From Nostoc sp. 106C (GTDB taxonomy: Bacteria; Cyanobacteriota; Cyanobacteriia; Cyanobacteriales; Nostocaceae): DNA of 42,886 bases. Positions 25,470 through 39,610 of this stretch are shown one piece after another. A program made the translations under genes and the position numbers. The stretch covers positions 1 through 42,886 of the forward strand of contig NZ_MTAW01000086.1 in the NCBI RefSeq assembly GCF_002154725.1, given 5' to 3'. Under the pieces are notes generated by a model. That model ran no database searches. It was not told where the DNA came from and worked only from the letters and a program-made list of their open reading frames with translations. Position 1 is the first letter of the stretch. Each line of letters begins with the position of its first letter.

Positions 25470-28400
25470 ATGACTCAGCTTTCTCCCACCCACGACGAAA
25501 TGTTCCCAGAAAAAATACTTCTGGAAACCGAGAGCGATGCAAGCCTCAACAAAGAATTAGTCACTCTCCGACAGAGGGTGGCACAGTTAGAGCAAGAGTT
25601 GCGAATACGAGAGTCAGAGTCGTCTCAGCAACAGGCAAATCAAGATCTAGATACTGAGAACTTCTTGAAGCAAGCAAGGGAAGAACGCCAAGCTTTGATC
25701 GCAATTCTCGAAGCCAGCGCTGATTTCATTGGCATCGCATCAATGGAAGGGCAACCTTTCTACCTCAACCCAGCAGGACTAAAGTTGGTTGGACTCAAAG
25801 ATATAGAGGAAGCTCAGACCAAACATATCAGTGAATTTATAGTACCTGAAGACCTGGAACTGCTGCATCAAAAGATTTTACCGACTGTGATTCAGGAGGG
25901 TTATTGGCAGAGTGAATTCCGTTTTCGTCATTTTATCACTGGAGAGCCAATTCCAATTGACTATACTCTCTTTGTTGTCAAAGATCTGGTCACAAACCAG
26001 CCCATTGGTTTGGCAACCATCAGCCGTGATATTCGCCATGTCTACGACGAGCTTCGCTTACGTAAATGCACTGAACAGCGTCTTTTAGCACAAACACAGT
26101 TGTTACAAAGCGTTTGGGAAGGTGTAGACTACGGCATCTTTGTCTTAGATGTTTTGGATGATGGTACGGAGTTCCGCTTTGTAGATTACAACTCAGCGAT
26201 CGCCTGTACCAGTGGTGTCCCAATGACAAGCCTTTTGGGCAAAACTTTGGCAGAAGCTTTTTCAGAAGATATGGCAAACCTCTACCGCCAGCGCTATGCT
26301 GTGGCTGTCCAGTCTGGCAAGACTAACTTCTTTGAAGAGAATTTCTGTGCCAACGGTCGAGAAACTTGGTGGTCTTTAAGTGTCACACCCTTAAGAGATA
26401 GTAGTTTGCGCATCCATCAGATTGTCGTTACGGCAACGGACATTACAGAACGCAAACAAGCCCAAACCGCACTGGAGCAACAAGAAATCCTGTACCGCAG
26501 TATTTTTGAAAATGTCAGCGATGGTATCAACATCATCGATCTGGAAACAGGAAAAATTGTAGCGGCCAATCTTGCTGCTTGCCAGATGCATGGCTATTCT
26601 CAGGAGGAATTTGTGACACTTGAGCCTTCAGAATTTATTCATCCAGATAGCCTGCCAAAGTTTGCAGAGTTTGTTAGCAAAATTCAAGCAGGTAGCCAAT
26701 TTCACGATCGCGCAATAGACGTGCGTAAAGATGGCACACTGATTGATGTTGAGGTGACAGCAACTCCCAGCCTTTACAACGGTAAAATCCATGCGTTGGC
26801 GGTAATTCGAGATATTAGTGAACGCCAGCGTGCCGAAGTTGCGCTTGCCGAAAGCGAAGCTAAGTTTCGCAACCTCGTAGAAGGTGCTAACGATATGCTA
26901 TGGGTTTGCACATTGGATGGAGTTCTCACCTATCTTTCACCTCAATTTCAAGTCATGTTTGGGTACAAATCATCCGATTGGCTAGGGGAATCCTTAATAC
27001 CCTTGGTTCATCTAGATGATTTAGCAGTAGTATTAGCTTTGCTCAATAAAGTTTTAGAGACTGGTGAGCAAGGTGCAGGAGTAGAATTTCGGCATAAATG
27101 TCTAGACGGAAGCTGGCGATGGGTCAATTCTAATGCTTCCCCAGTCAAGAATGCTGAGGGGAAAACGATCGCATTTCAGGGAATTATGCGAGACATTAGC
27201 GAGCTTTACGAGGAGCTTCGCTTACGCAAAGAAATTGAAACTGCCCTAGCTGAAAGTGAAGCTAAGTTCCGTAGGCTTGTGGAAGATGCCAATGATGTGA
27301 TTTGGGCTTCTCAATTAGATAGTACCCTCACCTATATTTCTCCCAAGTTTCAGGATATTTTTGGCTATGAAGTTTCTGAATGGTTAAATCGCTCGTTTGT
27401 GCCTTTGGTTCACCCCGATGATTTACTTGATGTCATGGAATTTCTCAATCAAATCATTGAAACAGGTCATAGTGGCGCGGGGATAGAGTTTCGCCATCCT
27501 AGAAAAGATGGAAGTTGGGGATGGGTTACATCGAATGCCTCACCAATAAAAGATGCTGATGGTAAAGTCATTGGATTGCAGGGTATTTTAAGGGATCTGA
27601 GCGATCGCAAACAAGCTGAAATCGAACTCCAGCAGAAAACCAAGGAACTGGAGCAAACTCTGCAAGAACTAAAACAAACTCAAATACAGATGATTCAAAG
27701 CGAGAAAATGTCCAGTCTGGGTCAAATGGTCGCAGGTGTTGCCCATGAAATTAATAACCCAGTTAACTTTATTCATGGCAATCTCACCCATATTAGTGAA
27801 TATACTCAGGATTTATTAAATTTAGTAGAACTTTATCAGCAGTATTATCCTCAGCCACCGCAGGAAATTGCAGATGCGATCGAGTTGATCGATGTGGAAT
27901 TTATCATTGAAGACTTGACTAAAGCCCTCCAATCCATGCGCTTAGGAACTAAACGGATTCGAGAGATTGTGCTTTCTTTGCGGAATTTCTCACGCTTGGA
28001 CGAAGCAGAAGTTAAGGATGTCAATATCCACGATGGCATCGACAGCACCATTACCATCTTGCACAATCGTTTGAAAGCACAGTCGGAACGCCCAGAGATT
28101 CAAATTTTCAAAAAATATGGTAACTTGCCTCTAGTGGAATGCCATGCGGGACAGTTGAATCAGGTGTTTATGAACATCATTAGTAATGCGATCGATGCAC
28201 TAGAGGAGTACAATCAGCAGCGATCCGACACAGAAATTGCCGCAACTCCCAGCATCATCTCAATTCAAACAGAGGTAACCCAGAACAACAGGGTGCGAAT
28301 CTGTATCGCTGACAATGGCCCAGGAATAAAAGAAGAAGTTCGCAAACGTCTATTTGATCCCTTTTTTACGACAAAGCCAGTTGGTAAAGGTACTGGCTTG

Positions 28401-28526
28401 GGTTTATCTATCAGCTATCAAATCATTACAGAGAAGCATAGTGGTAAGTTGTGGTGTGAATCTACATTCGGATATGGGACAAAATTTATTATTGAAATTC
28501 CCATAATTTATGCAAACTTGAAATAG
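25470..28526 (+). CDS. Multi-PAS hybrid-free sensor histidine kinase
   Basis: A 1018-residue cytosolic kinase with no transmembrane segment. After a coiled coil (about 20-75) come five PAS/PAC units at roughly 80-190, 205-325, 340-455, 460-580 and 590-715; units 4 and 5 are a recent tandem duplication (both start ALAESEAKFR, share PLVH.DDL and GAG.EFRH). EELRLRK linkers recur between units. The H-box His759 is in GVAHEINNPVNFI, then the ATPase domain with NQVFMNIISNAIDAL, ADNGPGIKE, LFDPFFTTKPVGKGTG. No receiver domain or adjacent response regulator is present. No conserved haem or flavin ligand was identified, so the signals are unknown. Its catalytic half is a close paralogue of the FIST-linked kinase. 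Confidence 0.95.
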   Translation: MTQLSPTHDEMFPEKILLETESDASLNKELVTLRQRVAQLEQELRIRESESSQQQANQDLDTENFLKQAREERQALIAILEASADFIGIASMEGQPFYLNPAGLKLVGLKDIEEAQTKHISEFIVPEDLELLHQKILPTVIQEGYWQSEFRFRHFITGEPIPIDYTLFVVKDLVTNQPIGLATISRDIRHVYDELRLRKCTEQRLLAQTQLLQSVWEGVDYGIFVLDVLDDGTEFRFVDYNSAIACTSGVPMTSLLGKTLAEAFSEDMANLYRQRYAVAVQSGKTNFFEENFCANGRETWWSLSVTPLRDSSLRIHQIVVTATDITERKQAQTALEQQEILYRSIFENVSDGINIIDLETGKIVAANLAACQMHGYSQEEFVTLEPSEFIHPDSLPKFAEFVSKIQAGSQFHDRAIDVRKDGTLIDVEVTATPSLYNGKIHALAVIRDISERQRAEVALAESEAKFRNLVEGANDMLWVCTLDGVLTYLSPQFQVMFGYKSSDWLGESLIPLVHLDDLAVVLALLNKVLETGEQGAGVEFRHKCLDGSWRWVNSNASPVKNAEGKTIAFQGIMRDISELYEELRLRKEIETALAESEAKFRRLVEDANDVIWASQLDSTLTYISPKFQDIFGYEVSEWLNRSFVPLVHPDDLLDVMEFLNQIIETGHSGAGIEFRHPRKDGSWGWVTSNASPIKDADGKVIGLQGILRDLSDRKQAEIELQQKTKELEQTLQELKQTQIQMIQSEKMSSLGQMVAGVAHEINNPVNFIHGNLTHISEYTQDLLNLVELYQQYYPQPPQEIADAIELIDVEFIIEDLTKALQSMRLGTKRIREIVLSLRNFSRLDEAEVKDVNIHDGIDSTITILHNRLKAQSERPEIQIFKKYGNLPLVECHAGQLNQVFMNIISNAIDALEEYNQQRSDTEIAATPSIISIQTEVTQNNRVRICIADNGPGIKEEVRKRLFDPFFTTKPVGKGTGLGLSISYQIITEKHSGKLWCESTFGYGTKFIIEIPIIYANLK

Positions 28527-28592: not shown

Positions 28593-29972
28593 TCAAAAAG
28601 AATACTCTTTGATCCGTGGCATTAATCCAAATAAACTTAAAAGCGCGATCGCACTCACTGCAACTGAAGTTGTCATCTCAAAACCGTCTACATCGTGAAA
28701 GCCTTGCTGAATTGCCTTGTCGAAAGCTGCTTGGTTGATATCAAAGCTTTTTTGATTAGTCGTTTTGAACTGCTCAAACGCCCAATCTGACTGTCCTGGT
28801 TTGTTACCTATGCCTAAAGCGATCGCTTCTTGATGTTTGCCACTTTTTTCTAACTGACGAATCTGCTGATCAATAGCAATATAGGTTCCCAAGCTAGAGA
28901 GATTTGCCAGTGTCGCTTCTTTCTCACCTGCAAAGGTGATATTGTTCAGTTCGTCAGCCAAGTAACCTGTAAACCCATCGACTTTTTTACCTTGGGATTT
29001 ATATGCTTCTATTACTGACTCAAAGGTCTGCCCATTGGATAATTGGGCGATTTTAGAAACATTGTTGAAAAAAGCTTGTTCGTGATTAGTAGCAAAAGCT
29101 GGGTCAAGCAGATAGCGGCTTTCAGCAGCATTGGCGATATAGGCGAGCGCACGAGCTTGACGCAATACGTGCATAGAAGTAAAAGCATCCTCTTTCGCCA
29201 CCCGAAGATGTTGAGAAGCAGCAAGCAATGCCCCAGCTGTGTAATTCAAAAAGGCAATAGCGATCGCAGTTGCGATTAACAGCAGCGGATTAAAGGTGCG
29301 GCGCATCCGTTGACTGAGAAACATTTGAAGCCCAACCAGCACAACGATCAGTGCTAAACCAATTAGGAAAATCGAAAATATAGATTTTCTGGTTGCAACT
29401 TGTTTCTCAGCGTAGGTATCTTCTAAAGCTTGCAGATTTACCTTGTCTAACTCATCGGCTGTTGGCAGAAGTGTTTTATCGATGATTTCGGCAGCTGCGC
29501 GATAAGCAGCAAGCATTGCGTTAGTATCACCACGTGCGTGAGAGTCTCGTGCTTGCTGGATTTTAGCTATGTAGTTACCTAACCCCAGTTGCATAGTCTC
29601 AATCGGTTTACGCTCTTTGTCGCCAAAGGTGATATTCTCGGCCGCAGCCACTAACCTTTCAGTAACTCTTAGATATCGCTCTTCGTAATCCTTAACGGCT
29701 TGTTGGTTTTGCCCTGTGGGCACTAGCAGTTCATTAGCGACATTAGCATCCATACCAGCAAGCCCATCTTTGAGGCGTTGAGCAGTAACGATACTTGGGG
29801 TAGAGTCTTGACCAACGGTTTTGATACCCTGCCTCTGTGCTTGAACTCCGCTAATAATACTCAGTAGCAGTAAGACACTCGTTGCCCAGGTTAAATATAA
29901 ACCTCCCTTAAGCAGTTGCGGGGTTGTGAGTCCACGAATTGTTTTACTTGAAACTGCGATGATTTTACTCAT
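28593..29972 (-). CDS. GlnX-like membrane sensor: two tandem extracytoplasmic helical domains
   Basis: A 459-residue membrane protein with four predicted helices: TM1 about 25-43, TM2 about 196-218, TM3 about 229-252, TM4 about 434-453. They enclose two all-helical extracytoplasmic domains, about 44-193 and 253-432, each resembling a four-helix-bundle sensor like those of chemoreceptors. The cytoplasmic parts are tiny (about 24, 10 and 6 residues), so it must signal through partners. The topology matches what is known of actinobacterial GlnX, encoded next to pknG. Here it is the last gene of the minus-strand PknG-type cluster, 11 bases after the FHA gene. Function as an upstream sensor of the kinase is inference from layout. 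Confidence 0.7.
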   Translation of the reverse strand: MSKIIAVSSKTIRGLTTPQLLKGGLYLTWATSVLLLLSIISGVQAQRQGIKTVGQDSTPSIVTAQRLKDGLAGMDANVANELLVPTGQNQQAVKDYEERYLRVTERLVAAAENITFGDKERKPIETMQLGLGNYIAKIQQARDSHARGDTNAMLAAYRAAAEIIDKTLLPTADELDKVNLQALEDTYAEKQVATRKSIFSIFLIGLALIVVLVGLQMFLSQRMRRTFNPLLLIATAIAIAFLNYTAGALLAASQHLRVAKEDAFTSMHVLRQARALAYIANAAESRYLLDPAFATNHEQAFFNNVSKIAQLSNGQTFESVIEAYKSQGKKVDGFTGYLADELNNITFAGEKEATLANLSSLGTYIAIDQQIRQLEKSGKHQEAIALGIGNKPGQSDWAFEQFKTTNQKSFDINQAAFDKAIQQGFHDVDGFEMTTSVAVSAIALLSLFGLMPRIKEYSF

Positions 29973-29983
29973 ATTTTTAATAT

Positions 29984-30667
29984 CTATGATGATTGTCGGA
30001 TAGCTTTAATCACAACCCGAGTCCAATGACCTAAAGTGAATTCGTCTCCGTCTTGTAGAGGAATATCCACCATTGGCTTTAACTCTACGCCTTTGAATTG
30101 CGTACCGTTAGAAGAGCCAATATCGCGCAGAGTGAATGTACCATCTGCTTGACGGTTTAATAAAGCATGACGGTGAGAGACAGCATCGTCAGAGTCCAGC
30201 GCAATTTCTGGGTGAATTGCCCGGACTTGGCTATTACGACCGATGAGATTAGTTGCTTTTTCTAAGGGAAATGTAATAGGTGCTCGGTCAATTGGGGGTT
30301 CTGGACTTTCGGGATGACGCAGAGAGGGGTCGATTGTAACTACCACCTCCCAACCTGTAACGGGAAATTGGGGAGTAGAGGAAGATGTGGAGAAAAAACT
30401 TTGTTTTTGTGTTTCCTTTTCTTCTTCCTTTGGGGAATTAGCGATCGCTAATTCTCCATGTGCCTTAGTAACAAAGTTATAACCACAAATTTCGCAATAG
30501 TTGCCACTATCAGGTTCGTGGGGTGCACTACAATCTGGGCAGGTTTCAACATTCGTTGCATTCTGAGCTATTTTTTGTTCAGATATACCAAGAATTTTGG
30601 CTCCACAGTCTGAACAAAAATCTGATTCAGTTGATTCGTGTCCTTTAGGACATTTATATGTAGACAT
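29984..30667 (-). CDS. Zinc-ribbon FHA-domain protein (GarA/OdhI-like candidate)
   Basis: A 227-residue soluble protein. Two zinc ribbons open it: Cys6 with His10, CSDC (18-21), then CPDC (43-46) and CEIC (58-61). An acidic Ser/Thr-rich linker (about 78-100) contains EEEKETQKQSFFSTSSST. The FHA domain (about 125-225) has GR (143-144), SHRH (164-167) and SSNGT (185-189), so phosphothreonine-binding residues are intact. The ATG at 30667 is chosen; an earlier in-frame start at 30697 would only add ALRRSIQAS before Met. In actinobacteria a PknG substrate (GarA/OdhI) is an FHA protein phosphorylated on Thr just N-terminal to the domain; Thr86 is a candidate here, by inference. Confidence 0.85.
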   Translation of the reverse strand: MSTYKCPKGHESTESDFCSDCGAKILGISEQKIAQNATNVETCPDCSAPHEPDSGNYCEICGYNFVTKAHGELAIANSPKEEEKETQKQSFFSTSSSTPQFPVTGWEVVVTIDPSLRHPESPEPPIDRAPITFPLEKATNLIGRNSQVRAIHPEIALDSDDAVSHRHALLNRQADGTFTLRDIGSSNGTQFKGVELKPMVDIPLQDGDEFTLGHWTRVVIKAIRQSS

Positions 30668-30776
30668 ACTTGCTTGTATACTTCTTCTCAACGCCAAGAA
30701 GCAATATAAACTTCACTAAAAGTTGATACCTTTCCATACATTTTCCGTAAGAAAGATTTTCAATACTTTTTGCAAA

Positions 30777-31091
30777 TTACCGAGATAACATAATTAACCA
30801 ATTACCTAAACCCAATCCCAAGCTGATAACTAATATTGCCCACCAACGAGGCGTTAACAACTCCAGCCCTTTCAAGTTGGTAATATCTTCTCCACGAGCA
30901 ATTCGCTCCTGCTGATACCCAGGAAATAATATCAATCCTAAGCCCAGAACAAAGAAAGATGGTCCAATTATGCTTACCTTTAGATAAAAGTAACCTTTGT
31001 GGAGCGCCAAATCCCAGTTCCAGATTGTCAAAGCCGCCGCGATAGAAGCAATGAAAAATCCACCAAATCTTTCTACTGTTCGTGACACCAT
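30777..31091 (-). CDS. Small three-helix membrane protein of unknown function
   Basis: A 104-residue protein within the PknG-type cluster. Hydrophobic segments are at about residues 10-24, 35-55 and 84-100 (WWAILVISLGLGLGNWLIML); the loop between helices 2 and 3 carries YQQERIARGEDITNLKGLEL. I do not recognise the family. The ATG at 31091 is chosen, with AGGAG at 31105-31109 (13-base spacing); an in-frame TTG at 31115 would place that AGGAG inside the gene. Same strand as its neighbours with gaps of 93 and 109 bases. Confidence 0.6.
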   Translation of the reverse strand: MVSRTVERFGGFFIASIAAALTIWNWDLALHKGYFYLKVSIIGPSFFVLGLGLILFPGYQQERIARGEDITNLKGLELLTPRWWAILVISLGLGLGNWLIMLSR

Positions 31092-31184
31092 AACCGTCGC
31101 TTTACTCCTATTCAAAATTAAAATTTAAAAAATTTAGTTAAGGTCATGCCTTTTGCTTCTAGACTCTTGACTCTAGAGTTTTGG

Positions 31185-32468
31185 CTAATTTGAAGATTTG
31201 GGAATGCGAGTAGTCTTAGTAGAACGAGTTTCCAATGCCATAGCGTCTTCCTTGGCTACTTCTCGCTTCAGCCGTACTGTACCTGTAGGCGCATCCTGTA
31301 TGTCAACCACAGTTTTTAGCAGTTTGGCTGTGGCTTCGTTACCAGATTCATGAGCTAGTTTCACTGCTTTACCTAATTTGGCTGTAGCGACTTCAATATC
31401 ACCTCTAGCACGGGCTTCCAATCCCTCTTGAATAGATTGGGCAAGTTCTGCCTGTCCTGTATAGTGAGCAACCCGGTTATTAATTTTGGTAGATTTAGCA
31501 TCATCGTCTGTCCAGGTTGCCAAGATTCGAGCTTCGACAACTTTAGTTTCTATACCGTTGAGGGTGTACACTAAGCTTGCCCGACCCGCTAACATTTCAT
31601 CACCAACATTGCCAGGATTCACCTCAATGCAGAAGTGGTAATCACGCGACTCGTTGCTACCCCAAGCACCAGTAGGGTAATCCAAAATCTGCGGTTTGAC
31701 GGGTTTGGCACGCTGGGTAAGGTCAACAATGTCTGGACTCACCTGTTTGCAGAACAGTACTTTTGCTCCTTGGGGTGTCCACAACCGCATGGTTACGTCG
31801 CTGACATCCTTGCTCATGGCTTTTTCTAAAATCGCCCGAAAATCAGCTTCAATCATCGCAGCGTTGGGAATGATATCAGTCGTACCGAGGAGTTTATCTG
31901 CAATTTGTTGGAGTTGGGCGACTCGCCAATCAGTACCAACGCCTCGGCAATCGCACTGAAATACACCTTCACACTGTTGTAAAATCTTTTTCAGTTGTTG
32001 CTCATCTGAGTCGTCGTTCATGCCATCGGTAAGCAGTAATGCTTGTCGAACTGCATCAGGTTTCTTTTTGAACTGTGCCAGCGCCTCAGTTAGCCAGGTA
32101 GACATAAGAGTGCCACCATTAGCTAGGATTTTTTTAATTGCTGCGATCGCCTCCGCTTTCTTTTCTAGAGTAGCTTTAGATACCGGGAAAACTACACTTG
32201 CTTTACTTGAGCCAGTCACAATAAAGAAGTAGGCCTCCTCTGGTAGCAAACTCACAACTTTGACCATTGCATCCTTAGCAGCATGAATCTTACCGCCACC
32301 CATTGAACCGGAGACATCGCAGATAATGCCAAAAAGTCTGCCGTTGTTGGGAGTTGCTGGTACACCATCACCTTTTTCAACGCTGACAGTCATGATGGCA
32401 TGAACTTCTTTGGCACCTTGAGGTAAATATTGGTTTTGAAAGACTTCGGCTTTAAATTGGTTAGACAT
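31185..32468 (-). CDS. VWA-domain protein with Thr-rich C-terminal tail
   Basis: A 427-residue cytoplasmic protein. The von Willebrand A domain (about 42-215) has the full MIDAS: DVSGS (51-55), NGGT in KKILANGGTLMS and LLLTDG. A beta-rich domain follows (about 220-330) and then a helical region (about 335-395). The tail ends EDAMALETRSTKTTRIPKSSN-like (read in pieces: ALETRSTKTTR, IPKSSN), rich in Thr with basic residues, a plausible kinase target and FHA ligand (TxxI). No signal peptide or transmembrane segment. It lies between the PP2C gene (63 bases upstream) and the small membrane gene. A metal-dependent scaffold role in the cluster is inference. Confidence 0.85.
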   Translation of the reverse strand: MSNQFKAEVFQNQYLPQGAKEVHAIMTVSVEKGDGVPATPNNGRLFGIICDVSGSMGGGKIHAAKDAMVKVVSLLPEEAYFFIVTGSSKASVVFPVSKATLEKKAEAIAAIKKILANGGTLMSTWLTEALAQFKKKPDAVRQALLLTDGMNDDSDEQQLKKILQQCEGVFQCDCRGVGTDWRVAQLQQIADKLLGTTDIIPNAAMIEADFRAILEKAMSKDVSDVTMRLWTPQGAKVLFCKQVSPDIVDLTQRAKPVKPQILDYPTGAWGSNESRDYHFCIEVNPGNVGDEMLAGRASLVYTLNGIETKVVEARILATWTDDDAKSTKINNRVAHYTGQAELAQSIQEGLEARARGDIEVATAKLGKAVKLAHESGNEATAKLLKTVVDIQDAPTGTVRLKREVAKEDAMALETRSTKTTRIPKSSN

Positions 32469-32531
32469 AATATTTCTGAAGATATGAATTTAATCAACCA
32501 CAGAGGCACAGAGAAAGATAAAGAATTTAGT

Positions 32532-33491
32532 TTATAAAGCGAGAACTGCAACTGTGATGTTGTCATGTCCACCACTTTGTCGGGCAAATTCCACCAGGCT
32601 ACGAGAAACGCCGATCGCATCTGTAGCTGATGATTGCTGCACTAGGTTAGCCAATTGCCAAGGTTCAGGGGCATAGTTCCATAGCCCATCGGTACACAGG
32701 AGTAGGTATCCCGAACCAGGAATCCTAAAGTTCACAATTGAGGGGATGGAATCTGCAACTGCATCTGCTCCTAGCCAGCGAGTAATCGCATGAGCTTTAG
32801 GAGATTGTGTAGCTTCAGCTTCAGTCATTTCTCCGGCTGCTACTACTTCATATAACCAGGAATCATCCTGAGTTAATTGTTTGGAAACGTTAGGAGAAAT
32901 CCAATAAGCGCGGCTGTCACCTAGCCAACCAATAGTGGCGTTATGGTTATGGACAATAGCGGCAACAATGGTAGTGGATGGTGGATCGGAATTTACACTA
33001 GATAGATAAGGAATATTACATACAGATGTGAGAGCAGCGGCAAAGGCTGATTTAATCGCTAACTTTGGGTTTTCTTCTGTTTGCCAGGCAGTAGCTAGTT
33101 CCAAAGACGCACTTTCACCAGCAGTTTGGGCTGCTAAATCAGGTTGATCGGCACTGGAAACTCCATCGCAAACTACTAAGATATTTACCTGAGAGTCATT
33201 TATATGTTGTAGAGCCAAAAAATCTTCATTGCGGTGATGTCGCAAACCGCGATCGCTCACTCCGGCTAACTGTGAGTTAACTATAACTTCTAGGCGATCG
33301 CGCTCCTTTGGTTCTCTGCGAAATCCACAATTGGTACAGTAGCCCTCCGCGTCTATTGCTTCGTTTCCAGCACCGCATTTTTCACAGCCTTGTATGGTTG
33401 TTGGTGGTTTACTTGCAGTCAAAGGTGTACCGCATTCTTCACAAAATTGATCGTCTGCTAGGACGGATGCACCGCAGCTCAAACATTCCAT
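32532..33491 (-). CDS. PP2C-type Ser/Thr phosphatase with two N-terminal zinc ribbons
   Basis: A 319-residue metal-dependent phosphatase. Zinc ribbon 1 has CLSC (3-6) and CEEC (17-20); ribbon 2 has CEKC (36-39) and CTNC (52-55). The PPM/PP2C domain (about 72-318) has SDRGLRHHRNEDF, the metal-binding VVCDGVSS, IGWLGDSRAYWI, LLLCTDGLWNY and GGHDNITVAVL, i.e. all core aspartates. The ATG at 33491 is chosen; ten upstream residues (MTNDKQQITI) come from an intergenic heptamer repeat. It is likely the phosphatase opposing the PknG-type kinase encoded just upstream; the shared zinc-ribbon architecture supports this. Confidence 0.93.
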   Translation of the reverse strand: MECLSCGASVLADDQFCEECGTPLTASKPPTTIQGCEKCGAGNEAIDAEGYCTNCGFRREPKERDRLEVIVNSQLAGVSDRGLRHHRNEDFLALQHINDSQVNILVVCDGVSSADQPDLAAQTAGESASLELATAWQTEENPKLAIKSAFAAALTSVCNIPYLSSVNSDPPSTTIVAAIVHNHNATIGWLGDSRAYWISPNVSKQLTQDDSWLYEVVAAGEMTEAEATQSPKAHAITRWLGADAVADSIPSIVNFRIPGSGYLLLCTDGLWNYAPEPWQLANLVQQSSATDAIGVSRSLVEFARQSGGHDNITVAVLAL

Positions 33492-33500
33492 AATTGTTAT

Positions 33501-33545
33501 TTGTTGTTTGTCATTAGTCATTTGTCATTAGTCATTTGTTTGTGG
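33501..33545. repeat. Heptamer-type repeat left of the four-helix-bundle gene
   Basis: Copies of TCATTTG/TCATTAG in tandem. The stop codon and last four residues (QTND) of the four-helix-bundle gene are made of this repeat. The opposite flank of that gene (33920-33948) carries the same repeat in inverted orientation. Confidence 0.7.
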
Positions 33546-33902
33546 AATATTACCGATAGATTTGAGATATGCATTAAGTTTTGGTGCTAATTCGTTGATG
33601 ATTGATTTAAGTGCATCTACTTGAATAGTAGTTAGAAGGTTACGACTGTAGGCTCTCCTGAGCCAGTGTTGAGTTTCATTCAAAGATCCTCTTGCTACAC
33701 GGATAAAACGTCGATTTTCTGGGAAAGTACCTCGCCCTGAACCTTCTGCCAAATTTGCCCCAATGCTATCAGCTGAGCGCACAATCTGTTTACCAACAGT
33801 ATCTTTAGCAAATTGTTCCCAGCAATTTACAATTTTCCAAATTTCATCTGCCAATCGTTCTGCTAATTGATAAACCTGCAAATCTTGAAACCTCTTACTC
33901 AA
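33528..33902 (-). CDS. Four-helix-bundle protein (23S rRNA intervening-sequence family)
   Basis: A 124-residue protein of the S23/IVP four-helix-bundle family: RFQDLQVYQLAERLADEIW, QIVRSADSIGANLAEGSGRG and RVARGSLNETQHWLRRAY are diagnostic. Members are often encoded within 23S rRNA intervening sequences or scattered as single genes; the biochemical role is unclear. A TTG start with a GAAGGGAA ribosome site is used. The gene sits between the kinase and PP2C genes of the PknG-type cluster and is bracketed by inverted heptamer repeats, so it looks like a later insertion rather than a pathway component. Spacing to neighbours is 36 and 50 bases. Confidence 0.88.
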   Translation of the reverse strand: MSKRFQDLQVYQLAERLADEIWKIVNCWEQFAKDTVGKQIVRSADSIGANLAEGSGRGTFPENRRFIRVARGSLNETQHWLRRAYSRNLLTTIQVDALKSIINELAPKLNAYLKSIGNIPQTND

Positions 33903-33919
33903 TTCCCTTCCCTCTTAAC

Positions 33920-33948
33920 TAATGACAAATGACAAATGACAAATGACA
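33920..33948. repeat. Heptamer-type repeat right of the four-helix-bundle gene
   Basis: Four tandem AATGACA units between the pknG-type gene stop and the four-helix-bundle start. Inverted relative to the copy at 33501-33545. Confidence 0.7.
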
Positions 33949-33952
33949 TTTT

Positions 33953-36133
33953 TTAAATTAAAGTTCTCGGACGTATCTTATTTGCCTGATCAACTAAGTG
34001 AATTTTCTCCTTTCCGCTGGACAGATGCGCCATGTCCCGCAAGGCTTTTTCTAAGCCTTTTCTCAGATGGATTTCTTGGAGGGGTTGTCCTAGAATTTTC
34101 AGATCGGCAGCAGCTTGGAGTTGCTTTGAGGTTAGTAAATTCAAGGCTGTTTCTAAAACTTGCTTAGTCAAGCGATGACGATCCATACCTTCCAAGGTTA
34201 ATGTTTCAATTGCTGTGGAAGCTGCTTGGAGTTCTTGAGAACCGGGAGCAGAACGATCGCGATTAATTAAAGTCCGGGCAATTTCAACTCGCGATCGCGT
34301 AAATAAACTAGAGGCTGGCGGTACACGTTCCAATGCGGCGACTGCACCTTTGCGGTCTCCAGTTGCACACAGACAACGAGCCAATCCAAATGCGGCTGTT
34401 ACATAACCAGGATCGGTACGCGATACCAGATCGTACATCTTAATTGCTAGTTGATAATTTTGCGCCTGTTCTGCTGCTAAACCCAGCGCTAGCTTGGGAG
34501 CTAACTCGCCCGGTAGGTCAAAATAAACTTGGTCAAATGCTTTCTGTGCTTCTGTGGCTCTATTCTGCGCCATCAAAACACGTCCCCGATACCAGAAAAT
34601 GCGCCAGTCCCAAGGATCTTTCGCTTCGACTTTTGCTAAAGATTGCTCTACTTCCTCAAAGTCACCCACATCAATCAGGGTATTTGCTAATCGTAACCAT
34701 GCTTCGCTGGAAGTTGGAAATTGCTTGACGACCACATCTAAACTTACAGCTCGCTTAACTGGATCGGCGATCGCACTGGCGTTAAGCACTGCATTAAAGC
34801 CAGAATCGCTGGCATCTAATATGGGTATAGGTAATTGTTGATATTCTGGTTGAATGGGTTCCAAGCTACCGCTGTGAGTCAGAGCCAACATATCGCCGCT
34901 CAACAGATTGCTGGTAAATGGACGGGGGAGATTAGTTGCGATCGCCACGACTTCCCGCAGCACACCCAATAACTGATCTGCCATTTCATCGGCTGACTGA
35001 AAACGGTCATCGGGATTTTCCGCAGTCGCTTTAATTAAGAAGCGATAAAGTGATTCTTGTTGGACAAATAACGGTTCTTCTTGAGGGCTGGGTAAGGTGT
35101 AGAGGTGTTCTTTACTAAAGCCTTTAATATCAGTGAGCAGTACCGCCAAAGTTCTCCCAATAGTAAATAAATCGGAAACAACTGTCGGACCTTCACCTGC
35201 TTCTGGGGCGCTGTAACCTACTGTGCCGTAAATATCGCCATCCAGGTCATCTATGCGGCGGACACCACCTAAGTCAATGAGCTTGACATCGCCGCCTTCG
35301 ACCATGATATTGTCTGGCTTGAAGTCGCAATATACCATGCCTAAAGAATGCAAATAAGCAAATGCACTGAGGATGCGGTGAATATAAGCGATCGCTTCTG
35401 CTACTGGTAGCGGCCCCCGACTTTTGCGAATTTCCTTGAGGGTTTTACCGCCAACATACTCCATGACAATAAAACCCTCAGTACCGTGGTTGACAAAGTT
35501 GTAAATTCCCACGATATTGCCGTGTTTTACAGCTGCGAGGAACTGTCTTTCAGCCACAGCAACGGCTGCACTAGCTGCATCTTCAGTATTCAGCAGTCCC
35601 TTTAACACTACATAGCGAGATAGGGTTTTATCAAAACCTAAGTAAATCCAGCCTAAACCACCATAAGCGATCGCTCCTTTGACTTCGTATTGCCCCACAA
35701 CTAAATCACCAGGATTGAGGCTAGGGATAAACGAATACTTTTGTCCACACTTGCTACAAAATCCCTTTTCTCGCCGCAAAGGATGATTGCAATTACTACA
35801 AAAGCGCTTATTCTCCGGCACCATTGGGTTAGGAATAATCGCTTTTTCTGGCTCAGTTGAAGGTAGTTCTGGCACAGAGATTAACCCTGCTCCCAGTTGT
35901 CTGCGACTACTACGGGCAGAAGTACCACTAGTACGTCGCGAACCCTTGGAACGGTTGGTTAAGGGAGATGAACCTGTACCCGTAGTCACTGGTGAACTTC
36001 TAGCTGTAATAGTTGCGCTTTGCTTCTGGCTGCTGAAATTTTGAGATTTTACCGCCGCCAACCCGCAGACATTACAATAGCCATCTTCAATAATGCCAGT
36101 GCATCCATTTCGCGTGCAGCGATCGCTGTTCAT
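33953..36133 (-). CDS. pknG: PknG-type Ser/Thr protein kinase (zinc ribbons, kinase, TPR)
   Basis: A 726-residue soluble kinase. Zinc ribbons at 6-23 (CTRNGC, CNVC) and 112-129 (CSNC, CSKC) flank a Ser/Thr/Arg-rich linker. The kinase domain (about 147-405) has Gly-loop AYGGLGW, Lys178, YCDFKPDN in place of HRDxKxxN, and DLGG in place of DFG. The same divergent features (YNDLKPEN, DLGA, AHGGLGW) define mycobacterial PknG, as I recall it. A TPR region (about 455-620) includes FPGELAPKLAL-like PGELAPKLAL and AAFGLAR; the C-terminus LVDQANKIRP matches PknG LVDMANKVRP. The ATG has a GGAG ribosome site with 7-base spacing. In actinobacteria PknG phosphorylates the FHA protein GarA/OdhI; an FHA protein is encoded 3.3 kb downstream. 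Confidence 0.93.
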   Translation of the reverse strand: MNSDRCTRNGCTGIIEDGYCNVCGLAAVKSQNFSSQKQSATITARSSPVTTGTGSSPLTNRSKGSRRTSGTSARSSRRQLGAGLISVPELPSTEPEKAIIPNPMVPENKRFCSNCNHPLRREKGFCSKCGQKYSFIPSLNPGDLVVGQYEVKGAIAYGGLGWIYLGFDKTLSRYVVLKGLLNTEDAASAAVAVAERQFLAAVKHGNIVGIYNFVNHGTEGFIVMEYVGGKTLKEIRKSRGPLPVAEAIAYIHRILSAFAYLHSLGMVYCDFKPDNIMVEGGDVKLIDLGGVRRIDDLDGDIYGTVGYSAPEAGEGPTVVSDLFTIGRTLAVLLTDIKGFSKEHLYTLPSPQEEPLFVQQESLYRFLIKATAENPDDRFQSADEMADQLLGVLREVVAIATNLPRPFTSNLLSGDMLALTHSGSLEPIQPEYQQLPIPILDASDSGFNAVLNASAIADPVKRAVSLDVVVKQFPTSSEAWLRLANTLIDVGDFEEVEQSLAKVEAKDPWDWRIFWYRGRVLMAQNRATEAQKAFDQVYFDLPGELAPKLALGLAAEQAQNYQLAIKMYDLVSRTDPGYVTAAFGLARCLCATGDRKGAVAALERVPPASSLFTRSRVEIARTLINRDRSAPGSQELQAASTAIETLTLEGMDRHRLTKQVLETALNLLTSKQLQAAADLKILGQPLQEIHLRKGLEKALRDMAHLSSGKEKIHLVDQANKIRPRTLI

Positions 36134-36144
36134 TTAAATCTCCT

Positions 36145-36187
36145 GATTAGTCATTTGTCATTGGTCATTTGTCATTGGTCAAGAGTC
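36145..36187. repeat. Heptamer-type repeat upstream of the pknG-type gene
   Basis: Tandem TCATTTG/TCATTGG units immediately upstream of the kinase gene's ribosome site, same family as elsewhere in the window. Confidence 0.65.
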
Positions 36188-36194
36188 AAACTCG

Positions 36195-36299
36195 CAATTT
36201 TGGTTTTAAAGGCGCAACTTCCAGGCTCAAAGCTGCAACATTCAGGCTCAAAGCCTCAACGTTCAGGCTCAAAGGCTCAATTTCCAGGCTTAAAGGCTC
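36195..36299. repeat. 21-bp tandem repeat, four clear units plus one degenerate
   Basis: Units of 21 bases at 36216, 36237, 36258 and 36279, consensus AAC(A/T)TTCAGGCTCAAAGGCTC; a degenerate unit precedes at 36195. It lies in the spacer between the coiled-coil gene and the kinase gene. Being 21 bases long it stays open as a seven-residue repeat in some frames, but no real gene is indicated. Confidence 0.85.
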
Positions 36300-36365
36300 A
36301 AAAAATATCATAAATTTACAATGCAGTTTGTCCCCTTCTTCTCCCTTGTTTCATCTATAATTCCC

Positions 36366-37574
36366 CTAAGATTTGCCATTTAAACGCTTTTCATATTGAG
36401 AGACTAATTCAGCAGCTTTGTCTAAAGCAGTAGGACGTGTATACAAAAGTTGCTTTGCTTGTTCAGCTAGCTCGGATAGTTTGGCATCTTCAATCAATCC
36501 CTTGGCGAATGCTTTGGCTTTGAGAGCATCCAAGCGTCCCCGTAACTCCCGACGGCTGTCAAGGAGAGTAGTATTAGCTGTGTATGCTCGTTGTTCCGAT
36601 GCAATGTACTCTTTAGCTTTGTTCATCCAATTGTCTAAGCCGACCATAACTGGATTGACTAAACCCTCCGCTAGCTTAGTTTCTAACCTTGTCAGCCATT
36701 GACTGAGCGCATCTAATTGGACATCAGTTAATGGAGTTTGCTGTATTAAATAATTCACAATTTTTTCTTGGCTTTCCGCAAAAGCAGCCACAGAACTTGA
36801 GTGGATTGTAGTTAATTTTTCTAATAAATCGTGAGCGATCGCAAATTTCTCTCGGATTTGATGTTGCTGTTTCAGCGCTTGTTCTACAACCAATTTCACT
36901 TTTGCCAGCATTGGCTTAATCTGTTGTTCAACCTCTGCACTCACTCCCAGAGGATCTTGTTCTATACGTTGACGCAATGATGCGATCGTCGCCTGAGATT
37001 GAACTAATTCACTAAGAGAATTGGAATCTAGGGATTCTGCTAAGTTTTGCAGTGAGTAGATTTGAGATTCTGCATCCGCCAGTATGCGATCTAGATTAGC
37101 CCAAGCCGCATCAACAGCTAAAACTGTATCTCTAGCAACAGAGAAAGCATCATTCATCACTTGGAGTAACTGTGCAGGTGCGATCGCATTTGCTATGTGA
37201 GTAGCAGTCAGTAGTTCTCTGTCTGCAAGCGGTGTTTGCACAGATGCTAACTCAATTGAGGCTCCTGTTAACAGTTGTTTTACCTCATAAATTTTCTGTT
37301 CACTTGCCAAAAAGCGTGGTAATTGCTGTCGCAACTTACTCGCCTTCTCCACTACCTGCACTAATAAGTCGAAGTATTGAAACAAATCATTCATCGCCTC
37401 CAGCGCTGGAGTCACCCGCGTCGCCGTGATTCCTGTTAAATCCACTCTGGGAAAGCTTGGACTACCACAAAGTCGCTGATATGTTGGCTGTTCTTGTAGT
37501 TCTAGAAGATTTTGGCTGACAACTTTGATTTTATGTTTCCAGTCAGCTAAAAGTTGATCAATTTCATCTGTCAC
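36366..37574 (-). CDS. Helical/coiled-coil protein of unknown function, head of the PknG-type cluster
   Basis: A 402-residue, almost entirely helical, Leu/Ala/Gln-rich protein without cysteines clusters, signal peptide or membrane segments. I do not recognise a named domain. Predicted coiled-coil segments lie at about residues 1-28, 70-100, 190-260 and 330-395. A conserved-looking motif is GSPSFPRVDLTGITATRV near residue 38. The GTG at 37574 has a GGAG ribosome site with 8-base spacing. It is the first gene of the minus-strand cluster, 232 bases upstream of the kinase gene, so it may be a kinase scaffold or target; this is inference from position only. Confidence 0.65.
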   Translation of the reverse strand: MTDEIDQLLADWKHKIKVVSQNLLELQEQPTYQRLCGSPSFPRVDLTGITATRVTPALEAMNDLFQYFDLLVQVVEKASKLRQQLPRFLASEQKIYEVKQLLTGASIELASVQTPLADRELLTATHIANAIAPAQLLQVMNDAFSVARDTVLAVDAAWANLDRILADAESQIYSLQNLAESLDSNSLSELVQSQATIASLRQRIEQDPLGVSAEVEQQIKPMLAKVKLVVEQALKQQHQIREKFAIAHDLLEKLTTIHSSSVAAFAESQEKIVNYLIQQTPLTDVQLDALSQWLTRLETKLAEGLVNPVMVGLDNWMNKAKEYIASEQRAYTANTTLLDSRRELRGRLDALKAKAFAKGLIEDAKLSELAEQAKQLLYTRPTALDKAAELVSQYEKRLNGKS

Positions 37575-37774: not shown

Positions 37775-38863
37775 TTAAATTTTATCTGCCAACCATTCAC
37801 GAAAACTCGAATGATAAAAGCTGTAATATTTTTCTTCTGCTATTTGTTCTTGGTGTAAAAACTCAAACCAATTTTCTAACACTTCCTCAACATCATATTC
37901 ATCTGCATTAATTAGTTGTGCAACTGCTTCTATAGATATAGACTGCTGTTGTTTGACTAAAACATTCAAGACAGCGAGGCTAAATTCCTCATCTTGATTT
38001 GCAGCCATCATTTTTTGCCAATGCTGTTGATAATATGCATTTAAACCAGATGGAATTTGATTGTAGTGTAAAGGTTGCGAGTAAAAACCCTCAGCAATAG
38101 CAGATAAAACCTGACTGATGTACATAAAATTATTTTCCGATTTAGCAGCAAGGCTAGTGCAAAATTCTTGCTCACTTATCTGATGATTACTTAGCCAAGA
38201 CTTTATATTTTCGTAAGTTAAATATTGCTGAATATATGTTTGAATATCTTGTAGAGTTTCTTCTGAGTAGCCTGCTAAATCAAGAGTCTGCGACGGCGTT
38301 TCAATTAATAAACCCGATTTCTCTCTCAAAAAAGGTCGGCGAGTTAGGAGGAAATAAACCCCATCTGCAAGATAGCGGGGAAGATAAAATAAATTTGTAC
38401 CTGGGGATTGACTATTGCGGTCAATGCGGTCTAATCCATCAATAGCAATTATCAGTTTTTGATTAGGTTCTAACTCATCGCTGATTTGCTGAATTAACTG
38501 ATGTAGAAACGTCACATGAAATGTCTCTACAGGTAACGTCTCTACATTGAATATCTCAACAAGTTGGGTGCAAATATTGCTAATGAATTCCTCAGCGCGA
38601 TTTTTACCCTCAAGTTCAACGTTGTAATAGACAACATGAGGATTATCTATCGCATACTTGGCGAGAATAGCACTTTTACCGCTACCCGGAGCGCCTGTGA
38701 TAGTGAAGTAACCCTGGTGATAACGCTGAATAAACTCTTGAATAGCCGTAAACACAAATTCATGACCGACAAAATTATGGCTTTGTTCAGTAATAATTTG
38801 CTCAAACTGTGTTGGATGTCCTCTGGAATTGATTGTAGTGGGTGGTCTGGGTGGTGAATTCAT
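37775..38863 (-). CDS. STAND/NACHT-type P-loop ATPase, short form
   Basis: A 362-residue ATPase. It begins with a linker, then the STAND-like entry NFVGHEFVFTAIQEFI, Walker A GAPGSGKS (57-64), Walker B LIIAIDGLDRID (about 137-148), sensor-1 YFLLTRRP and a winged-helix region (about 270-360) ending FYHSSFREWLADK. In larger cyanobacterial proteins this last motif directly precedes WD40 or TPR repeats; here the protein stops there, so the sensor repeats are missing. It starts 14 bases after the stop of the DUF3368 toxin gene, which suggests co-transcription with the toxin-antitoxin pair. No effector domain is present at the N-terminus (about 30 residues only). Confidence 0.85.
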   Translation of the reverse strand: MNSPPRPPTTINSRGHPTQFEQIITEQSHNFVGHEFVFTAIQEFIQRYHQGYFTITGAPGSGKSAILAKYAIDNPHVVYYNVELEGKNRAEEFISNICTQLVEIFNVETLPVETFHVTFLHQLIQQISDELEPNQKLIIAIDGLDRIDRNSQSPGTNLFYLPRYLADGVYFLLTRRPFLREKSGLLIETPSQTLDLAGYSEETLQDIQTYIQQYLTYENIKSWLSNHQISEQEFCTSLAAKSENNFMYISQVLSAIAEGFYSQPLHYNQIPSGLNAYYQQHWQKMMAANQDEEFSLAVLNVLVKQQQSISIEAVAQLINADEYDVEEVLENWFEFLHQEQIAEEKYYSFYHSSFREWLADKI

Positions 38864-38877
38864 AATTATTTTTGTTT

Positions 38878-39366
38878 TTATTCTCCAGCTTGTTGTTTAA
38901 GCAAATTGACCACAGTATCAGATAACCATAAACCAGCATCACGTAAGGCTTGAATTCCGGGAGACACGCTTAAAATTATTCCGCGTCGTTTTGCTAGCAC
39001 TATTAAGCCTCCCGTACCAATGGTGGTAATGCCTAACGATTGGCCGCAGCGCCGTGCTGCTCTATCATCAACAACGGCTGCACAATCGGAAGTTGTCAAA
39101 GCTAGACTTAATACTTGTGACTCTCCTAAACCCAAATCCCAAGCAGCAATTTCAGGTGATACAGCCGGAATTTTTACTATTTGTATCCAAGAAACACTAG
39201 GCAATTGTCTTGAGGCTGCATCATCTTCCCCTGCTGAAGTAACTTCTGTAAAAACACCTTCGGGAACAATAATTTCTTTAAAGAGTTGTGGGAGTAATTC
39301 TGCTTGTTTACTTTTAAATAAAACAATCAGAGGTGAAGAGTTGATAATGATGCCGTTAATCGACAT
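38878..39366 (-). CDS. DUF3368 PIN-like toxin
   Basis: A 162-residue PIN-fold protein of the DUF3368 family, presumed ribonuclease toxin. It has NSSPLIVLFK near the N-terminus (Asn where many PIN proteins have the first Asp), Glu in LGLGESQVLSLAL, and the acidic pair in AAVVDDRAARR followed by GTGGLIVLAKRRG. The overlap of 11 bases with the upstream UPF0175 gene indicates a coupled antitoxin-toxin pair. The first Asp position may limit catalysis; the family often shows this substitution. Confidence 0.88.
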   Translation of the reverse strand: MSINGIIINSSPLIVLFKSKQAELLPQLFKEIIVPEGVFTEVTSAGEDDAASRQLPSVSWIQIVKIPAVSPEIAAWDLGLGESQVLSLALTTSDCAAVVDDRAARRCGQSLGITTIGTGGLIVLAKRRGIILSVSPGIQALRDAGLWLSDTVVNLLKQQAGE

Positions 39367-39610
39367 TTGTCATTTCTTCGGCTAGTTCTTCTGGAGTGTA
39401 TTGCATAAAATCAACTCGGTAACGAGAGAGAGCATTAATAAACTCTGCCCTTGTTAATCCGGCAATTTCTGCTGCTTTCGCTTGAGATATGTCGCCTAAC
39501 TCATACCATTTTACTGCGGCGGCAATCCGCATCTCTTGAACGAACTCTTCAGGGTTTTTGCGGAGAGCCGAAAATACAGTTGATGGTAATTGGATTGGTA
39601 CTGTTTTCAT
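39356..39610 (-). CDS. UPF0175-family antitoxin
   Basis: An 84-residue DNA-binding-type antitoxin. LPSTVFSALRKNPEEFVQEM, then AAVKWYELGDISQAKAAEIAGLTRAEF, a helix-turn-helix, are diagnostic of UPF0175. The C-terminal acidic tail (YTPEELAEEMTNVD) probably contacts the toxin. Overlaps the toxin gene, as usual for these pairs, and likely autoregulates from its own upstream region. Confidence 0.92.
   Translation of the reverse strand: MKTVPIQLPSTVFSALRKNPEEFVQEMRIAAAVKWYELGDISQAKAAEIAGLTRAEFINALSRYRVDFMQYTPEELAEEMTNVD

Follow-up and report, generated by a model that had tools for sequence, protein, structure and literature searches.

Does a protein kinase of the PknG type, when it is encoded in a cyanobacterium, serve the control of 2-oxoglutarate metabolism, or does it belong to a signalling system of another kind? 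The question was raised by positions 28593-37574 of contig NZ_MTAW01000086.1 of Nostoc sp. 106C (42,886 nucleotides, hereafter the window), where eight open reading frames (ORFs) were found, all on the minus strand. In the order of transcription they encode a protein called COIL here, PknG, a 124-amino-acid protein, a PP2C phosphatase, a VWA protein, a 112-amino-acid ORF, an FHA protein and GlnX. An earlier interpretation based on the letters of the DNA (the sequence-only reading) had described a sensor, a kinase, a phosphatase and an FHA reader linked in one cluster of eight minus-strand genes, and this observation was confirmed. Based on the comparison with other genomes, it was concluded that the cluster represents a copy of a conserved phospho-signalling module, COIL-PknG-PP2C-VWA-FHA-GlnX, which is spread over very distant bacteria.

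When named genomes were scanned, 352 matches to the pattern were obtained, 295 of them encoding a relative, and the best 80 of the 295 were analysed. These loci were assigned to Cyanobacteriota (59), Acidobacteriota (8), Pseudomonadota (5) and Actinomycetota (2), with one locus each from Armatimonadota, Dormibacterota, Bacillota, Verrucomicrobiota, Sericytochromatia and Myxococcota; many of the relatives were contigs of metagenome-assembled genomes (MAGs), for which the phylum assignment is possibly wrong. Granulicella rosea, Trinickia fusca, Undibacterium jejuense and Phytohabitans flavus were among the named strains. The set of COIL, PknG, PP2C, VWA, FHA and GlnX was recurrent. At least 8 kb was present on both sides of PknG in 37 of the 80 loci. 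Of these 37, 30 encoded all five partners on one strand and no farther away than 8.5 kb (21 of 28 in Cyanobacteriota, 5 of 5 in Acidobacteriota, 3 of 3 in Pseudomonadota and 1 of 1 in Actinomycetota). The seven incomplete loci (L028, L048, L051, L052, L067, L071 and L072) were all cyanobacterial, and the phyla with a single locus were represented by cut contigs holding 1 to 5 partners each. In 60 of the 80 loci, COIL preceded PknG by no more than 500 bases, many of the remainder being cut by contig ends. Pairwise distances within the six families were correlated with one another at 0.86-0.96 (55 loci, values not corrected for species kinship).

The kinase and the sensor also occurred together at the level of genomes. 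Of 386 cyanobacterial genomes, at least 6 contained the C-terminal PknG domain PF16918 (E≤1e-20), and at least 6, the identical ones, contained the GlnX family (E≤1e-10), when up to five and up to four first-look candidates per genome were scored, respectively. GlnX was not seen near PknG in 23 of the 80 loci; it was found elsewhere in the assembly in 13 of the 13 genomes tested out of those 23, and in the ten further loci the contigs ended close to PknG. Around the 13 remote GlnX genes, PP2C-VWA-FHA-GlnX was present in 2 cases, VWA-FHA-GlnX in 3, FHA-GlnX at a contig edge in 3 and GlnX alone in 5 (Chamaesiphon). The co-occurrence in other genomes on which the sequence-only reading depended was borne out by the 30 complete loci, by the same six genomes and by the 13 separated GlnX genes.

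No further gene was taken as a general member of the module. Clusters of the other ORFs reached at most 11 and 10 loci, in addition to TelA in four betaproteobacterial loci, and the two clusters looked, by appearance rather than annotation, like broad transporter and histidine-kinase families. Since other ORF families recurred in at most 11 loci, a PAS histidine kinase next to the window cluster (25470-28526) was dropped. When the 124- and 112-amino-acid ORFs were compared with the 80 relatives by tblastn, neither was matched at E≤1e-5, and by this comparison both are outside the conserved unit.

Serine/threonine kinase genes are abundant in the genome of the window (73 Pkinase matches at E≤1e-15), and common signalling genes might have become neighbours by chance with no shared function. 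This explanation was strongly disfavoured and is considered highly improbable, as the gene order was kept up to rotation across phyla, GlnX was recovered in every tested genome with a GlnX-less PknG locus and the control regions were almost empty. When the module profiles were applied to the surroundings of 20 other kinase genes in this genome, COIL, VWA and GlnX were each found 0 times, FHA once and PP2C once. The FHA match reached 33 bits versus 117 bits for the weakest true member, while the PP2C match, at 158 bits, exceeded the weakest true member (66 bits).

Domains were assigned with Pfam and NCBIfam profiles. By its sequence, the 726-amino-acid product of 33953-36133 is a true PknG. The motifs AYGGLGW, YCDFKPDN, DLGG and LVDQANKIRP quoted earlier were all present, and Pfam matches were obtained for PknG_TPR (PF16918, 1.1e-69, C-terminal), PknG_rubred (PF16919, 2.7e-19) and Pkinase (1.3e-31). 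In a phmmer search, the structure of Mycobacterium tuberculosis PknG (2pzi) was matched at 4e-139 over residues 78-724, and the best PknB chain at 2.6e-22. Residues K178, D270, N275 and D287, which we take to be the catalytic ones, were conserved in 100% of 103 PknG rows. The rubredoxin cysteines C112, C115, C126 and C129 (two CxxC) were kept in 99-100% of the same rows; a cruder pattern of fixed spacing matched 90 of 105. A PknG profile applied to 20 stretches around other kinases of the same genome gave no more than 108 bits, whereas the weakest PknG row gave 492. In trees of 103, 50 and 36 rows, the window protein and all other PknGs were split with full support from a PknG-like outgroup (L152-L154); the trees were built without other kinases, from which PknG is separated by the scores. 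The test of kinase phylogeny that had been set beforehand was therefore passed through the trees, the 2pzi match and the bit scores together.

An additional zinc ribbon at the N-terminus of the kinase was deduced from conserved C6, C11, C20 and C23 (89-90%), a region that gave no Pfam hit. The pattern was matched in 79 of 85 readable module kinases and in 0 of 9 canonical ones, i.e. those of the short GlnX-GlnH-PknG form, after 6 module and 2 canonical rows had been set aside as unreadable; L083-L088, two of which are cut, did not match it.

The membrane protein passed the cut-off of the NCBIfam GlnX family NF058618 (304.5 bits, cut-off 250), as expected from the proposed GlnX-like sensor, and stayed below that of the equivalog NF041460 for the protein kinase G-activating GlnX (41.6 bits, cut-off 780). 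Four hydrophobic segments were located at about residues 23-45, 192-223, 229-252 and 432-455. The AlphaFold2 model was almost wholly helical with a confidence (pLDDT) of 92.9, and together with hydropathy it gave four transmembrane helices and two extracellular helical domains, a layout like that of the homologous GlnX of C. glutamicum (PMC9769921, available text). In the C-terminal tail, G449, R453 and E456 were conserved in 97% and Y457 in 91% of 74 rows. In Foldseek, the ectodomain resembled the ligand-binding domain of Vc1313 with D-arginine (8bsa; probability 1.00, TM score by target 0.75, E 0.23), and the Vc1313 domain structures with D-arginine and D-lysine gave probability 1.00 and TM scores by target of 0.73-0.75. 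Ranked by E-value, the leading matches were for the most part to other membrane proteins, at TM scores of about 0.1-0.3.

The PP2C, VWA and FHA identities proposed earlier agreed with the Pfam assignments. The phosphatase matched PF13672 (1.8e-9) and, above cut-off, the zinc ribbon PF13240; it also matched NF033484 at 6.2e-40, yet under the cut-off of that model. The VWA protein matched PF18571 (2.3e-21) and PF13768 (7.2e-19), and the FHA protein matched PF00498 (1.2e-13), with the double zinc ribbon PF12773 (0.00082) under cut-off. For the FHA gene, an ATG start near 30667 (MSTYKC) is the likelier one. The conserved residues were D119, D278 and D320 of PP2C (95% of 74 rows), D51, S53, S55, T120 and D148 of VWA (98-100% of 73 rows) and G153, R154, S174, H177 and N197 of FHA (94-98% of 68 rows); as usual for domains of these kinds, we take them to be metal ligands, the metal-ion-dependent adhesion site (MIDAS) and the phosphopeptide site, respectively.

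The sixth conserved gene was COIL (36366-37574), which the sequence-only reading had counted among its eight genes and had left unnamed. No Pfam family was found in the window protein, and across 45 relatives no family occurred in more than 3 members at E≤0.05. The AlphaFold2 model was all-helical (pLDDT 89.5, pTM 0.66) and had no fold match in the PDB at E≤0.001. Sequence-profile matches (best 0.0016) were scattered, mostly to coiled-coil stretches, and were taken as chance. The idea that COIL is a divergent TelA, which is also about 400 amino acids long and present in some of these loci, was rejected by a profile-profile probability of 1.1%.

If insertions are disregarded, the complete gene orders were, save for a few changes of strand, rotations of one order. 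COIL-PknG-PP2C-VWA-FHA-GlnX was found in most complete cyanobacterial and acidobacterial loci, PP2C-VWA-FHA-GlnX-COIL-PknG in L031 and L036, VWA-FHA-GlnX-COIL-PknG-PP2C in Burkholderiales and in one Sericytochromatia MAG, and GlnX-GlnH-COIL-PknG-PP2C-VWA-FHA in Actinomycetota. Nonomuraea gerenzanensis showed the cyanobacterial order followed by GlnH. The exceptions were L050 and L051, with COIL beyond GlnX on the opposite strand, and L151, with GlnX on the opposite strand. The rotated orders are of the kind that trimming of tandem copies at differing ends might leave. In the Sericytochromatia genome, a second VWA-FHA-GlnX-COIL block (L216, G035:C444:1-4534) ran to a contig edge, although a single PknG was detected there.

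Further, 296 actinobacterial genomes were sampled around the genome of L091, in which the module was known. With up to 18 candidates scored per genome, PF16919 was detected in at least 18 genomes, at 23 places, all of which were examined. All six genes were present at 10 places (one of them the centre of the sample), of the six GlnX and PknG only at 8, PknG without GlnX at 2, and a VWA gene with a distant PknG-like kinase as its neighbour at 3. Thus, 10 of the 18 actinobacterial loci with PknG and GlnX held all six genes and GlnH. The arrangement in one cluster had been presented as peculiar to the cyanobacterium, against a scattered actinobacterial system; that contrast fails in general, since the cluster also occurs in Acidobacteriota, in Burkholderiales and in these 10 of 18 loci. 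The GlnX-GlnH-PknG set known from mycobacteria is an abbreviated version of the six-gene module, and Tsukamurella L218, where the protein preceding the kinase is annotated as glutamate-binding, carries this short form. Second PknG copies with no GlnX nearby were observed in L147 and L150, on a tree branch of their own, in genomes that also have a canonical locus. The distant kinases beside VWA genes (L152, L153 and L154, Actinomycetota) were found in genomes also holding the full module; they may represent a paralogous two-gene system and a natural outgroup of PknG.

GlnH adjoined GlnX in 18 of the 18 GlnX-bearing actinobacterial loci and in L080 (Dormibacterota), L089 (Micromonospora) and L217. 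No linked GlnH reached E≤0.001, either in the window or in the other cyanobacterial loci, many of which are cut by contig ends, and none was found in the stretches covering the acidobacterial or pseudomonadotal (betaproteobacterial) loci. Elsewhere in the genome of the window, GlnH produced general matches only, the best at 2.5e-16 and 30% identity.

These results bear on a control of 2-oxoglutarate and glutamate metabolism like that by OdhI/GarA, in which GlnX would report amino acids, PknG would phosphorylate the FHA protein and the latter would release a metabolic enzyme. The window does encode a GlnX-PknG pair with an FHA partner, and according to the available text of PMC9769921 and PMC6069109, an FHA protein is under the control of such a pair in C. 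glutamicum and in mycobacteria. The kinase is homologous to the PknG of that pathway over the whole 2pzi chain; the module copies, however, add COIL, PP2C, VWA and FHA, and the loci with a linked GlnH all belonged to Actinomycetota or Dormibacterota. The module FHA protein scored 29.9 bits with the OdhI model, far under the cut-off of 200, and 0 of 10 FHA matches in the genome were over it (best 46.4 bits). An ETTS-like motif was present in 0 of 68 module FHA rows. The segment TQA[VLI]FRP, presumably part of the GarA-docking region (compare the available text of PMC8546545), was present in 0 of 85 readable module PknG N-termini; it was found in just 3 of 9 readable canonical kinases, and thus marks part of the canonical kinases only. 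The genome also had 0 matches to PF16870 of the 2-oxoglutarate dehydrogenase E1 component, when 6 of 14 control genomes matched it, in keeping with the earlier remark that the organism lacks a standard enzyme. A 2-oxoglutarate role for the module was therefore not supported, the OdhI/GarA-like output suggested by the sequence-only reading found no support either, and such control is regarded as improbable, although the module may still have a metabolic role.

The module also invites comparison with the TerY-P triad of VWA, PP2C and Ser/Thr kinase, to which GlnX and an FHA reader would have been added for a role in stress, metal response or defence. The ingredients of TerY-P, a VWA protein, a PP2C and a kinase with a zinc ribbon (PMC11090510, available text), are encoded together in the window, the VWA protein with its MIDAS residues, and among the 5 betaproteobacterial loci, 4 had a toxic anion resistance gene (TelA) upstream of VWA, while the remaining one was a contig of 3.8 kb. 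This betaproteobacterial TelA points to a link with metal or tellurite stress. TelA was not found in the remaining loci, however, and the window kinase is a PknG with a rubredoxin and a TPR domain, its ribbon pattern being N-terminal, while the TerY-P kinase bears a C-terminal zinc ribbon or OB fold (PMC11090510). Moreover, the module adds GlnX, FHA and COIL. Among the PADLOC defence models, those matched by PknG were for the most part PD-T4-6 and further models of kinases (25 of 35 families shown, the presence of a TerY-P model in PADLOC not having been checked), PP2C had one PDC-M21C match (3e-7), FHA a weak match (0.0072), and nothing was found for GlnX, VWA or COIL. Linkage of kinase, PP2C and vWA in actinobacterial conflict systems and TerY-P triads has been described (PMC11090510, PMC7159879), and the available text of both papers does not mention PknG or GlnX with them. 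A TerY-P-like triad is an unlikely explanation, though less remote than control of the OdhI/GarA type.

In the literature, a rubredoxin-bearing PknG homologue was reported in Calothrix and another in Ktedonobacter by Lisa et al. 2021 (PMC8546545), such kinases being described as mostly restricted to Actinobacteria; the main text, as available, has 0 occurrences of 'vwa' and 'phosphatase' and does not describe the neighbours of the two homologues. According to the present scan, PknG is spread more widely than stated there. A 2018 mBio paper (PMC6069109) described a GlnX-GlnH-PknG operon conserved in Actinobacteria, and the word 'phosphatase' is absent from its available text. No description of the six-gene module was found in open-licence literature, which leaves most subscription papers and bioRxiv preprints outside the coverage.

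The direction of change was considered from the trees. The short-form PknGs formed a single clade with full support (100/100 in two trees). The cyanobacterial PknGs formed a fully supported clade (100/99) lying among acidobacterial sequences, two of which were its sister, and in the GlnX tree the cyanobacteria were grouped with Acidobacteriota, the order being left open. Because of this placement and the patchy occurrence (6 of 386), transfer between phyla is suggested. With L152-L154 as the outgroup, the canonical clade fell among the module lineages in the best trees; a canonical clade sister to all module kinases was not rejected by the approximately unbiased (AU) test (p 0.352), hence both loss and gain of the extra genes are compatible with the trees. 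In the outgroup N-termini compared (L152 and L154), the kinase is preceded by a cysteine pattern of similar kind, and each of the three outgroup kinases adjoins a VWA gene; both features hint at loss in the canonical line. We tentatively proposed, at less than even odds, that the six-gene module is the original form and moved between phyla as a unit, that the mycobacterial and corynebacterial branch lost COIL, PP2C, VWA, FHA and the zinc ribbon of the kinase and was rewired to GarA/OdhI, that the native output is unrelated to 2-oxoglutarate, and that COIL is a scaffold of a new family.

As to the function, it was proposed, with a probability of roughly 0.6, that in this module a membrane sensor drives a switch made up of the kinase and the phosphatase, for which the FHA and VWA proteins are dedicated partners and COIL is a scaffold. 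GlnX would sense a small molecule outside the inner membrane via its helical ectodomains, probably directly in cyanobacteria and probably with the solute-binding GlnH in Actinomycetota and Dormibacterota. Its cytosolic loop and C-terminal tail would pass the signal to the TPR domain of PknG, with activation of the kinase as the predicted result. PknG would then phosphorylate threonines of the module, most likely in its own S/T-rich N-terminal linker and/or in VWA or COIL. The FHA protein would bind these phosphothreonines, FHA and VWA with the COIL scaffold would assemble or release an output complex, and PP2C would reset the switch. The zinc ribbons on the kinase, the phosphatase and FHA probably dock these proteins to each other or to metal. 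The eventual target in the cell is not necessarily 2-oxoglutarate metabolism.

The switch is supported by the genes being kept together over distant phyla, by the intact catalytic and binding residues and by PknG and GlnX co-occurring in the tested genomes, and also by the PknG and GlnX family matches, the distance correlations, the nearly empty controls and the resemblance of the GlnX ectodomain to that of Vc1313. Several points weigh against it. The splits in at least L025 and L028, among the 13 genomes with a remote GlnX, may be mere contig breaks. In the five Chamaesiphon genomes, the other four genes were not seen beside PknG or GlnX (some stretches being cut), and judging from these a PknG-GlnX pair may work without linked partners; likewise, 8 of the 18 actinobacterial GlnX-PknG loci had none of the other four genes nearby. 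The fold match of GlnX was not significant by E-value (none at E≤0.001). FHA, VWA and COIL are candidate substrates or partners of the kinase by linkage, and the literature, as far as its text was available, contained neither phosphorylation nor interaction or phenotype data on any copy of the module.

Features of the window cluster and of TelA-bearing relatives
Feature	Positions	Strand	Remarks
COIL	36366..37574	-	402 amino acids, all-helical, no known family; conserved sixth module member
PknG	33953..36133	-	726 amino acids; N-terminal zinc-ribbon-like Cys pattern, S/T/R-rich linker, rubredoxin, kinase, PknG-type TPR
23S_rRNA_IVP-type protein	33528..33902	-	124 amino acids, four-helix bundle, between PknG and PP2C; PF05635 3.5e-29
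PP2C Ser/Thr phosphatase	32532..33521	-	N-terminal double zinc ribbon
VWA protein	31185..32468	-	VWA_3 and VWA_3_C, MIDAS residues intact
Small ORF	30777..31115	-	112 amino acids, TTG start, two hydrophobic segments (hydropathy), no Pfam match
FHA protein	29984..30697	-	two N-terminal zinc-ribbon-like Cys clusters
GlnX-family membrane sensor	28593..29972	-	four transmembrane segments, two ectodomains, conserved cytosolic loop, C-terminal G...R..EY tail
TelA genes	L085 1821-3086, L086 3821-5104, L079 4016-5236, L083 3921-5189		upstream of module

Promoter and terminator predictions (16 and 5) were not in excess of those in shuffled sequences (17.3 and 9.1), and thus the operon was inferred from strand and spacing only. 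The PAS-repeat histidine kinase mentioned above is large and encoded on the opposite strand, its end lying 66 bases from the end of glnX; a similar one was observed in the closely related L012. Directly upstream of the module, at 37775-38863, an AAA/STAND-type ATPase with a weak Avs1b-like PADLOC match (1.3e-9, 34 bits) was found. Two overlapping small genes at 38878-39610 resemble a PIN-type toxin and its antitoxin.

According to the available literature, PknG has been studied in mycobacteria and corynebacteria, within one pathway and with an FHA substrate. The existence of a wider module, to which a phosphatase, a reader of phosphothreonine, a VWA protein and a new helical partner belong, changes the assumptions on the roles of PknG and GlnX, and a 2-oxoglutarate function should not be carried over to every PknG. 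The module names candidate partners of PknG, and the harmless organisms for finding them include cultured cyanobacteria.

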